IMG/VR virus record: IMGVR_UViG_3300044729_000077
Location: 1-20,741 of that record
Length of the DNA stretch: 20,741 nt
Source of the DNA: a virus
Direction: 5' to 3' (one strand)
Below are positions 1 to 4,674 of this stretch, piece by piece; the first letter of the stretch is position 1, and the number at the start of each line of letters is the position of its first letter. A program made the position numbers and the translations under genes. The notes beneath the pieces are model-generated. The model saw nothing but the letters and a program-made list of their open reading frames with translations, did no database searches and was not told the DNA's origin.

Positions 1-89
1 GCAAGATTCGCAGCCTTTGCTACTTAATCAACATCACCGCTGAAGAACTTAAACATTTGCAAATCGAACTCTCACAGGAACAATCATGA
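1..89 (+). CDS. C-terminal end of an unknown early gene (partial)
   Basis: An open frame enters from the left edge (first complete codon at 3) and ends with TGA at 87-89, leaving 28 residues that finish with ELSQEQS. The stop overlaps the ATG of the annealing-protein gene as ATGA, the same coupling used throughout this operon, which supports it being a real gene end. The tail is helical and Leu/Glu-rich. There is too little sequence to assign a family. Confidence 0.6.
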   Translation, partial: KIRSLCYLINITAEELKHLQIELSQEQS

Positions 90-2248: not shown

Positions 2249-2677
2249 TTAAGTAAAAACCCTAGTGCCTTGTTTATCAATAATCAGCACTTGTCTTCTA
2301 GGTGCTGTCTCTGGTGTATTTGAAATGCTAATATGAGTCCAGCGATCAAACTCACGAATTAATTGATCGTATGGCAAACCAGATGCCATGATCGCCCTGA
2401 CTACTTGATCAGGAGTTAATTGAGGTACTCGGATGTCCACAGCACAACCAATACGATGCTGACTAGTATCTTTAGAACCCACAGCATCATTGACTTGCTT
2501 GCTTCTAAAAGCCGAGTTAACCATAACAGGTCTTCCTCCCAAGGCAGATTTGACTTCTTCAAGGAAGGCTGCGAGTCGCTTGAGGTTTTCCAATTCGGCT
2601 TCATTGGGGGTATTGTCCAATGTTCGGTGATCTGTATGGGTTAGTTCTTCAAGAGTAAAGTGTTCTGTCAAGTTCAT
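2249..2677 (-). CDS. M15-family peptidase endolysin
   Basis: The 142-aa protein has the peptidase M15 (VanY/D-Ala-D-Ala carboxypeptidase-like) signature. SAFRSKQVNDAVG (55-67) is followed by SQHRIGCAVDIRV, giving zinc ligands His74 and Asp81. QLIREFDRWTHIS gives probable catalytic Glu109 and third ligand His115. Phage members cleave peptide cross-links in peptidoglycan to lyse the host. There is no signal peptide, consistent with release through the holin encoded just upstream. Its ATG overlaps the holin stop (ATGA). It is the last leftward gene, ending 7 nt from the convergent zinc-ribbon gene. Confidence 0.88.
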   Translation of the reverse strand: MNLTEHFTLEELTHTDHRTLDNTPNEAELENLKRLAAFLEEVKSALGGRPVMVNSAFRSKQVNDAVGSKDTSQHRIGCAVDIRVPQLTPDQVVRAIMASGLPYDQLIREFDRWTHISISNTPETAPRRQVLIIDKQGTRVFT

Positions 2678-3084
2678 TTTTTAGACCTCATGTCTGCAAG
2701 TTTCTCAACTGTACGGCCACCAAAGTAAGCCAAGAAAATGATCTGCCCCCACTGGCCAAGCAGTTGGACATAGGACTCTTGTGCGTTGTATCCAAAAGCT
2801 GACATCATGGTGAACACAAAATAGGCCACAAAGATGGCTATAAGAGCCATAGGGCGAATGTTTTTAGACAGCCAAGAGTCTGACCCCATGTCAGCTTTCC
2901 AGCGGTCTGAGATGTTTTCTTGCTCTACCTCAAACAGCTTGGTGTCGTTGGCCATCTTTGCCAGTTCACCATCTTGGGCCAACTTAGCCAACTCCAGTTG
3001 CGCTTTGGCTTTGGCCTCTGGGTCTGGAATTAGTTTGTCAATGAGCTTACCGCCCACGTTTAGAAGTGCGTCTAGTCCAATCAT
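2674..3084 (-). CDS. Holin of the gene-transfer-agent 3-TM type
   Basis: The 136-aa protein starts with an amphipathic N-terminus (GLDALLNVGGKLIDKLIPDPEAKAKA), a charged helical stretch (25-66), then WLSKNIRPMALIAIFVAYFVF and GQWGQIIFLAYFGGRTVEK, which form hydrophobic segments at about 79-97 and 107-122. This is the pattern of the holin family first described in gene transfer agents. A holin makes the inner-membrane lesion that lets the endolysin reach the wall. It overlaps the endolysin start by ATGA and the preceding membrane-protein gene by 4 nt, as expected for a lysis cassette. Confidence 0.85.
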   Translation of the reverse strand: MIGLDALLNVGGKLIDKLIPDPEAKAKAQLELAKLAQDGELAKMANDTKLFEVEQENISDRWKADMGSDSWLSKNIRPMALIAIFVAYFVFTMMSAFGYNAQESYVQLLGQWGQIIFLAYFGGRTVEKLADMRSKK

Positions 3085-3692
3085 TGTTTGCTCCTTGAAA
3101 GCATGGTTGCTGCAATTTCCATCATGGTTCTTGTCACCTGAATATCCGTAGGTTCATTATCCCACCCCACAGTAATTTGGCCAACAAACCGGCTTGGATC
3201 CGGTGGGATGCTGATTCGGCAAGTGTATGCAACCCCTTTGGCGATGTACCACAAACCCATTTCAGATTGCGCTGACTTGTATTCGCCACAAGGAATCTCA
3301 CTTGCCATCAGCTTGATCACATCAGCGTTATTGGCTTGGTTTTGAGTAAAAAGGCCAACATCAAGCCCATCGTTTGTTTTATCTCTGCCTTCTTTTGTAT
3401 ACGCACGATATAGCACTCGAGTTCCAAACATTGGGTTTACTTTAAATACAGCAATGATGGTGGCGTTGGTAGTTTTAAACAAATGAGCTGCAGCATCTTC
3501 CACCCTATCTTCAACAATGCTTGGCATTTTTTTGGATTCTTTATACGCACCCATCAATAGTTCTTGGTTCTGCCAAACAAAGTAACCAGTGAACGCAAAT
3601 ACTGCCATCAGTATTAGCGCAAACAGTTTGAATGGGCTATCAACATAGGACAGCACCTTGCTTAATACATCTGATGGCTTTTCGTCACTCAT
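3081..3692 (-). CDS. Membrane-anchored protein with a GAF-like C-terminal domain
   Basis: The 203-aa protein has one N-terminal membrane segment (about 20-42, FKLFALILMAVFAFTGYFVW), then a soluble domain. The domain pattern is TNATIIAVFKVNP, then IPCGEY, GLWYIAKGVAYTCRISIPP, FVGQITVGW and a closing helix (TRTMMEIAATMLS). This resembles a GAF-type sensor fold. The two Cys residues (in IPCGEY and YTCRI) may pair or bind a ligand. Topology is probably N-in, domain out in the periplasm. The family was recognised only by pattern and no function is proven. It sits between a 49-aa membrane protein and the holin, with ATGA overlaps on both sides, so a role in lysis timing or sensing is possible but inferred. 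Confidence 0.6.
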   Translation of the reverse strand: MSDEKPSDVLSKVLSYVDSPFKLFALILMAVFAFTGYFVWQNQELLMGAYKESKKMPSIVEDRVEDAAAHLFKTTNATIIAVFKVNPMFGTRVLYRAYTKEGRDKTNDGLDVGLFTQNQANNADVIKLMASEIPCGEYKSAQSEMGLWYIAKGVAYTCRISIPPDPSRFVGQITVGWDNEPTDIQVTRTMMEIAATMLSRSKQ

Positions 3693-3838
3693 AGACCAAT
3701 CATTCCAAGTAACTTATTCACAATCTTGTCTGACAGATCATCAGGCAAAAACTTGAGTAAGCCAAGCACCCACCAAGCAATGCAAAGCCTGACAAAGACT
3801 TTGAGGAATAGGTCAAATTGCTTTTGGTACTCATTCAC
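3689..3838 (-). CDS. 49-aa membrane protein with GTG start
   Basis: A short frame begins at GTG (3838-3836), overlapping the stop of the preceding gene as GTGA, and ends in TGA that overlaps the next ATG as ATGA. Coupling at both ends is good evidence for translation. The product has a short charged N-terminus (NEYQKQFD), one hydrophobic helix (about 10-31, LFLKVFVRLCIAWWVLGLLKF) and an amphipathic tail (PDDLSDKIVNKLLGMIGL). It could be an antiholin or holin-like accessory by location. No family was recognised. Confidence 0.6.
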   Translation of the reverse strand: MNEYQKQFDLFLKVFVRLCIAWWVLGLLKFLPDDLSDKIVNKLLGMIGL

Positions 3839-4329
3839 CGACCGCACCTTGTCTTGGCACACAAATCTTGTATCTCAGCAATGCCCCAACCAATTGCACC
3901 AAGCAGCATTACGATCACGACAACACCAACCGCCCATGCCATGTATTCTTCTTCTTCTTCTTTTCTTTTCTTTTCATCTGCCTTGGCTTGTCTGGCTAAA
4001 TGAGCATCTTCAATGTCCATTTGTTGCTGACGCTGCTTAATCTTTTGCCAGACATCAGCACGACCAGTGGCTTGAAATAAGAGCATCAACTCAGCCTCAA
4101 ACCGCTTGGCCTCATCTAAGGCCATCTCGATTTGAAGCGCAGTGCCTAAGTTTGATTTGTTGCCAGATCGTTTGGCTTCAACCATCGCCCTCGTAGCAAC
4201 GCTCTTAGCGTCAAACATCTTGGCGATAGAGGGAGCTAAACCAGCCAGATCATTTGCGACCTTGCTGGCTTTTTTGACTACGCTGATTGCACTTTGTAAT
4301 CCTGCAAGCGCTGTTATGGGGTCTATCAT
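3835..4329 (-). CDS. Coiled-coil protein with C-terminal membrane helix
   Basis: The 164-aa protein begins MIDPITALAGLQSAISVVKKASK. The chosen ATG at 4329 overlaps the preceding stop as ATGA and has AAAGG about 10 nt upstream. A longer version starting at 4350 lacks a plausible ribosome-binding site. The middle is a long Lys/Glu/Gln helix (about 55-130) ending in a KKRKEEEEE run. This is followed by a C-terminal membrane segment (AWAVGVVVIVMLLGAIGWGI). Similar proteins of unknown function are found beside lysis genes in environmental phages. The tail-anchored layout suggests a cytoplasmic coiled coil held at the inner membrane. Confidence 0.7.
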   Translation of the reverse strand: MIDPITALAGLQSAISVVKKASKVANDLAGLAPSIAKMFDAKSVATRAMVEAKRSGNKSNLGTALQIEMALDEAKRFEAELMLLFQATGRADVWQKIKQRQQQMDIEDAHLARQAKADEKKRKEEEEEYMAWAVGVVVIVMLLGAIGWGIAEIQDLCAKTRCGR

Positions 4330-4469
4330 TTCCGTACAACCTTTACCCATTCAAGGCAAACAACCTTCCGGTTGTAAACATCACCTGTCCACGCCCACCT
4401 CACACAACGGTACTCAACTTTTTCTGAAGTTGCTGTTAACAGAAACAATGGCAAAAGAAGCCAAAGCAT
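4326..4469 (-). CDS. 47-aa secreted Cys-pair protein
   Basis: A short frame starts at ATG 4469, 7 nt after the previous stop, and its TGA overlaps the next ATG as ATGA. The N-terminus MLWLLLPLFLLTATS is a compact signal peptide with a likely cleavage after Ser15 or Ala13. The mature part has two cysteines (22 and 38) placed to form a disulfide, aromatic residues in RWAWTGDVYNRK, and a basic end (KVVRK). I recognise this as a common small type in phage lysis neighbourhoods, with the VYNRK-V-C-LEW motif, but its function is not known to me. It likely acts in the periplasm. Confidence 0.6.
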   Translation of the reverse strand: MLWLLLPLFLLTATSEKVEYRCVRWAWTGDVYNRKVVCLEWVKVVRK

Positions 4470-4476
4470 CCATTGC

Positions 4477-4674
4477 TCACAAGCCTATGATTTTTTTGAC
4501 TAACTCGCCAGCAAAGCCTGGTCCGAGCAATACAGCCGCAATCACCACATAAAGCAAATACTCAATGCGGGTCATGCGCTGTGAACCTGATGCAAACGAC
4601 TTCTCAATGGCGGTGTACCTCTCAGCACAAACCGCCTCATGAACCGCCAGCCGTGTGTCGGTATCCTCAAGCAT
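4477..4674 (-). CDS. XhlA-like small membrane protein
   Basis: The 65-aa protein has an amphipathic, charged N-terminal helix (LEDTDTRLAVHEAVCAERYTAIEK), then RMTRIEYLLYVVIAAVLLGPGFAGELVKK with one hydrophobic helix at about 39-57. This two-part design resembles XhlA-type and other small phage holin-associated proteins. Position at the head of the lysis genes supports a holin, antiholin or accessory function, but the true family is uncertain. Its ATG overlaps the previous stop as TAATG. Confidence 0.6.
   Translation of the reverse strand: MLEDTDTRLAVHEAVCAERYTAIEKSFASGSQRMTRIEYLLYVVIAAVLLGPGFAGELVKKIIGL

Follow-up and report, generated by a model that had tools for sequence, protein, structure and literature searches.

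In phages of the lambda type the lysis genes are arranged in the order Q-S-R-Rz/Rz1, S being the holin gene. The T protein of phage T4 is a class III holin (phrog_860, the T4/T5 holin family; PDB entries 6PSK, 6PX4 and 6PXE) of about 200 amino acids, with a short N-terminal helix, one transmembrane (TM) segment, a domain of GAF-like fold and two conserved cysteines. It is the receptor of the antiholin RI, a small helical protein that is secreted and contains two cysteines. The periplasmic domain of T has been reported to be dispensable for hole formation and to be regulatory (PMC12162936). In T5-like phages, the holin gene directly precedes the endolysin gene. The TeaA protein of phage ICP1, assigned to Pfam family PF11351, was also shown to be a holin; it reduces the proton motive force, can be triggered by DNP and acts with the antiholin ArrA in lysis inhibition (PMC7182436).

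The DNA analysed here (the window) is a virus record of 20,741 bases. Its segment 2249-4674 carries on the minus strand all seven ORFs of a cassette read from 4674 to 2249 (Table 1). A previous inspection of the letters alone (the sequence-only reading) had described seven packed genes specifying five TM proteins and one secreted protein, and this was borne out: the first gene, XhlA-like in layout, is followed by a 7-nt gap and then by five successive 4-nt ATGA/GTGA overlaps; five of the seven proteins have hydrophobic TM windows, and the N terminus of the 47-aa protein resembles a signal sequence. The region forms the end of a minus-strand gene run and lies tail-to-tail with plus-strand genes at 2241/2249. 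Since tight packing continues upstream, where the XhlA-like gene and the preceding ORF overlap by 1 nt, position 4674 is no clear operon start. The preceding ORF encodes an Ala/Ser-rich protein of 117 aa without clear family, whose conserved counterparts precede several related lysis cassettes. Pairwise comparisons with IMG/VR relatives gave median dN/dS values of 0.06 for the XhlA-like gene, 0.19 for sec47, 0.05 for cc, 0.08 for tm49, 0.03 for the GAF-like gene (the strongest constraint of the seven), 0.07 for the holin and 0.08 for the endolysin. As these medians are all well below 1, every one of the seven genes is real, none a chance ORF, and all are under purifying selection. The region is the host-lysis module of a freshwater tailed phage.

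Table 1. Coordinates of the genes of the window's lysis region and of related features elsewhere (L numbers denote related loci).
Feature	Location	Strand	Evidence or remark
Endolysin, Peptidase_M15_3, 142 aa	2249..2677	-	PF08291 E=3.7e-17; phrog_894 endolysin E=2.9e-34
Holin, GTA_holin_3TM family, 136 aa	2674..3084	-	PF11351 E=2.8e-10; phrog_3427 holin E=2.6e-26
GAF-fold single-TM protein, 203 aa (phrog_31287)	3081..3692	-	Foldseek 6psk_T E=6.1e-6; holin-slot position
tm49, 49-aa one-TM protein, GTG start	3689..3838	-	triad member; 74/75 close GAF loci, 70/80 sec47 loci
cc, coiled coil + C-terminal TM, 164 aa	3835..4329	-	phrog_32327 E=3.8e-9; triad member
sec47, 47-aa secreted protein, two conserved Cys, W-rich core	4326..4469	-	triad member; no lipobox
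XhlA-like layout protein, 65 aa, C-terminal TM	4477..4674	-	TM window 37-59; no family above cut-off
Ala/Ser-rich protein, 117 aa	4674-5027		upstream of the seven genes
GAF relatives in T4-like phages	KC954775 (S13) 53403-53984; OR515478 (Ci1) 181922-182521
sec94 copies	L133:3382-3666; L150:3345-3629; L087:4594-4866; L096:4591-4869
cyt78 copies	L133:3663-3902; L150:3626-3862; L096:4870-5103
102-aa protein in the place of GAF	L307:4278-4586; L345:4293-4601		weak Rz-like spanin match, E=0.015
Cys-rich lipoproteins	L205:4149-4349; L318:4539-4751		KDxYRYxCQDPxxF...ECQKPxC
Short and long GAF paralogues in one contig	L101:2493-3098 + 3842-4594; L103:2499-3104 + 3842-4594

Two genes at the distal end of the cassette have assigned families. 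The endolysin scored 62.9 bits against PF08291 (curated cut-off 23.2) and the adjacent holin 41.2 bits against PF11351 (cut-off 24.8), thereby falling into the GTA_holin_3TM family shared by TeaA of ICP1. The M15 peptidase would cut the peptidoglycan and the TeaA-type protein would be a pore-forming holin. The XhlA-like protein gave no match above cut-off in Pfam, PHROG or NCBIfam; the name given to it by the sequence-only reading holds as a resemblance of layout only, not as a family assignment. Pfam and NCBIfam likewise offered no usable label for the GAF-like protein, tm49, cc or sec47.

The GAF-like protein matched phrog_31287 (E=3.7e-20), a family annotated as unknown. Relatives were confirmed in numbers of 541 by a first scan and 563 by a wider alignment scan, two overlapping sets; one scan of genome contigs confirmed none. 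Some relatives lie on contigs of 150-345 kb. Thirty-two diverse relatives were aligned, and the AlphaFold model built on this alignment (pLDDT 85) showed a helix at residues 6-16, a TM helix at 20-41 and then an alpha/beta domain. Among 350,542 PDB chains searched with Foldseek, the best match of this model was the periplasmic domain of T4 holin T (6psk_T), and comparison with a second T structure (6px4_B) gave a TM-score of 0.73 by target length. The fold initially guessed for this protein was thus the right one. GAF domains of phytochromes and other proteins came just behind T (E about 1e-5); ordinary GAF domains scoring nearly as well, the fold alone does not identify T. Matches in BFVD included proteins of Proteus and Serratia phages that are annotated as holin, class III holin or T holin.

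Similarity to T extends to the general plan of the protein, which has the same approximate length, N-terminal helix, single TM segment, GAF-like domain and pair of conserved cysteines; these two, C135 and C158, are shared by all 32 aligned relatives. The invariant cysteines and the Lys-rich tails of relatives suggest a probable N-in/C-out orientation. At the sequence level, the window protein matched phrog_860 weakly (E=0.032), over the N-terminal helix and TM segment. Alignment of its profile with nine T proteins by hhalign was not significant (probability about 4%, E about 0.01); the score was 24.1 and the highest among 60 column-permuted controls 22.2. At relaxed settings the two profiles were colinear over almost their full length. 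Sequence searches of the PDB with GAF, cc, sec47 and sec94 profiles (for sec94, see below) gave nothing significant. Thus, the protein resembles T in fold and was not placed in T's sequence family by either phrog_860 or the profile comparison. Homology being borderline, we speak of a protein that works like T rather than of a proven family member. Unlike T, it is found in freshwater phages together with another holin, of the 3TM type, many of its relatives have a Lys-rich N-terminal tail, and no relative of RI was recognised.

The decisive argument for a T-like role came from the position of the gene in enteric relatives. In Edwardsiella GF-2, Edno5, Vibrio IKEMa6-1 and related IMG/VR contigs, the gene of the GAF relative lies directly before the lysozyme gene, which it overlaps by 4 nt, much as the holin gene directly precedes that of the endolysin in T5-like phages. 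The antiterminator gene Q lies upstream in those of them that are annotated phages; Rz with a nested Rz1-like lipoprotein gene follows the lysozyme. In two further contigs the GAF relative precedes an M15 endolysin, giving the order Q-GAF-M15 among the enteric relatives. Hence GF-2/Edno5 and IKEMa6-1 keep the lambda-type succession of Q, lysozyme, Rz and Rz1 around the GAF-like gene, with the slot of holin S taken by the GAF-like protein, whereas the window is without recognisable Rz/Rz1. The GAF gene occupies this slot alone, no other holin being present in the cassettes of the enteric relatives. In that of GF-2 its product is the only TM protein besides Rz, and the lysozyme shows no obvious N-terminal TM or SAR segment. 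PF11351 was absent from GF-2, IKEMa6-1 and the T4-like phages S13 and Ci1, both of which carry a GAF relative. A single profile search with canonical T found no genuine canonical T in S13 or Ci1; an apparent T remnant in S13 was rejected, the match lying antisense within an nrdD-like gene. The GAF gene of these two phages may be a case of natural exchange of the holin in Straboviridae.

In the freshwater loci the GAF gene keeps its place while neighbouring endolysins and holins are exchanged. All 68 close GAF loci that extend 2 kb or more downstream have an endolysin gene nearby, of the M15, GH108 or GH24 type. An endolysin gene is likewise present in 47 of 59 loci with a long form of the GAF gene and in 8/8 enteric loci. 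The short form, present in the window, is accompanied by cc in 69/69 loci and by tm49 in 74/75. Genes of the window type were recognisable less regularly at short-GAF loci (holin 31/73, endolysin 32/69, sec47 25/65, XhlA-like 5/62), and the holins beside GAF belong variously to PF11351, the phrog_6637 type or the phrog_1544 type. The freshwater cassettes examined usually contain a 3TM holin as well, and in two loci read with GH108 directly after GAF a 3TM-like protein comes next. The original description of the segment as a lysis region is upheld by this evidence, the unassigned genes travelling with lysis genes. It also bears on the notion that these genes are virion or moron genes merely adjoining the lysis genes. 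Their location behind late genes of the same strand and the presence of several small ORFs without family would agree with such an origin, which is nonetheless very improbable given the association of GAF relatives with endolysins across divergent phages and endolysin classes, and the location of the GF-2 gene between Q and lysozyme.

The fold match to T, the T-like layout, the lone holin slot in enteric relatives and the constancy beside varied endolysins and 3TM holins led us to conclude, with a probability of roughly 70%, that the GAF-like protein is a T4-T-type (class III) holin or a holin-like lysis timer, acting beside a TeaA-type holin. The short N-terminal helix and TM segment would lie in the inner membrane and make or gate the hole, as reported for T (PMC12162936), and the GAF-like domain, probably held by a disulfide, would set or gate lysis timing from the periplasm. 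In enteric relatives without a 3TM holin, the GAF-like protein would itself be the holin. Since the window also carries a TeaA-type holin, the protein may serve here as co-holin or regulator; and, as a 3TM holin usually accompanies it in the freshwater cassettes examined, it may not make holes at all. This last consideration favours a reading that partly overlaps with ours, in which the protein forms no pore: anchored in the membrane and facing the periplasm, it would be a sensor or antiholin that keeps the 3TM holin in check until the arrival of a signal. The GAF fold is classically sensory, the regulatory domain of T is reportedly not needed for holes (PMC12162936), and the low dN/dS of the GAF gene would also fit; however, the cassettes of GF-2, IKEMa6-1 and the remaining enteric relatives contain no further holin to restrain, and we hold a purely restraining role to be the less probable one. 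The sequence-only reading, which had listed a sensor or antiholin for lysis timing among several possibilities, came close to the T-type interpretation, since the nearest solved structure is the receptor of an antiholin; its count of only two genes with a clear lysis role was too low, the GAF-like gene being a likely third.

The three genes between the GAF-like and XhlA-like genes form a unit of their own. With an alignment of sec47 used as query in the scan, sec47-anchored loci were found to include cc in 79/80 instances and tm49 in 70/80, GAF in only 11/80. The cc gene also occurs without sec47 and without GAF (L177, L178). In L318 the triad is found together with a lipoprotein gene and an Rz-like gene (by sequence layout), and in L205 cc accompanies a protein matching Rz-like spanin profiles. 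The recurrence of the triad without GAF and with Rz-like genes marks sec47-cc-tm49 as a separate conserved lysis-accessory triad, not tied to GAF and not needed as a spanin replacement. Most likely the triad would adjust holin triggering. In L307 and L345 the place of GAF between triad and holin is taken by a 102-aa protein with an N-terminal TM segment and a coiled coil.

These loci also weigh on the suggestion that the unassigned genes replace spanins, for instance that sec47 is exported as a cationic, disulfide-bonded, Trp-rich peptide and breaches the outer membrane. The early remark that no Rz/Rz1 pair is visible holds for the window and for three relatives of 35-38 kb, in which a lipobox scan (without formal calibration on known spanins) revealed no convincing outer-membrane lipoprotein and no Rz/Rz1 candidate; moreover, sec47 is secreted and has a conserved two-Cys core. 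Nevertheless, the coexistence of the triad or of cc with Rz-like genes in L318 and L205 led us to reject spanin substitution as the main reading of the triad, and the earlier proposal to that effect found no support. In addition, the 17 residues of sec47 that are invariant across 7 diverse members seem more in keeping with a protein-binding module than with a membrane-active peptide, and L150, whose cassette is also without a recognised spanin, lacks sec47 too. We thus regard a spanin-replacing triad as improbable. The lipoproteins of L205 and L318, which are Cys-rich and encoded between cc and the Rz-like gene, constitute a candidate o-spanin family; they gave no PHROG match.

The long form of the GAF gene has other companions. 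In 75 loci it directly adjoins sec94, which encodes a secreted helical protein of about 89-114 aa with two invariant cysteines (model pLDDT 90.5), and in 46 loci the two are joined by cyt78, specifying a charged, apparently cytosolic protein of ~78 aa without family. In the sister phage L150, which has flanking genes in common with the window, the stretch from the XhlA-like gene to the holin is occupied by sec94-cyt78-GAFlong in place of sec47-cc-tm49-GAFshort. Like RI, sec94 is small, secreted and helical, with two cysteines, and it is a candidate for a partner of the GAF protein in the periplasm. The structural test did not bear out an equivalence to RI, the sec94 model having no PDB match below E=1 and none to the RI fold; sec94 is not present in the window. 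Two contigs (L101 and L103) contain short and long GAF paralogues with a racemase-like gene in between and a GH19 endolysin near. A tentative extension of these data, for which the odds are rather against, is that a system of lysis timing by two holins is widespread among freshwater phages. In it a T4-T-like GAF receptor/holin, whose partners (sec47-cc-tm49 or sec94-cyt78) can be exchanged, would take a periplasmic or membrane signal and decide when the TeaA-type holin fires. Such a system would be one of lysis inhibition outside the T4, ICP1 and N4 models.

What we propose as new is a T-type holin-like protein outside the T4 and T5 families, adjoining a TeaA-type holin and accompanied by a defined accessory triad; the literature searched yielded no paper linking the GAF domain with a phage holin, or GAF with holin and endolysin. 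The sec47-cc-tm49 triad represents a well-defined, conserved, lysis-associated gene set without assigned function. In the GF-2 relatives, where the GAF gene stands alone before lysozyme and Rz/Rz1, the idea can be tested with a single gene. The T-type reading would give a function to phrog_31287, a family with members on more than 540 IMG/VR contigs, some of them longer than 100 kb, and would extend the T-holin architecture beyond the T4- and T5-like phages.
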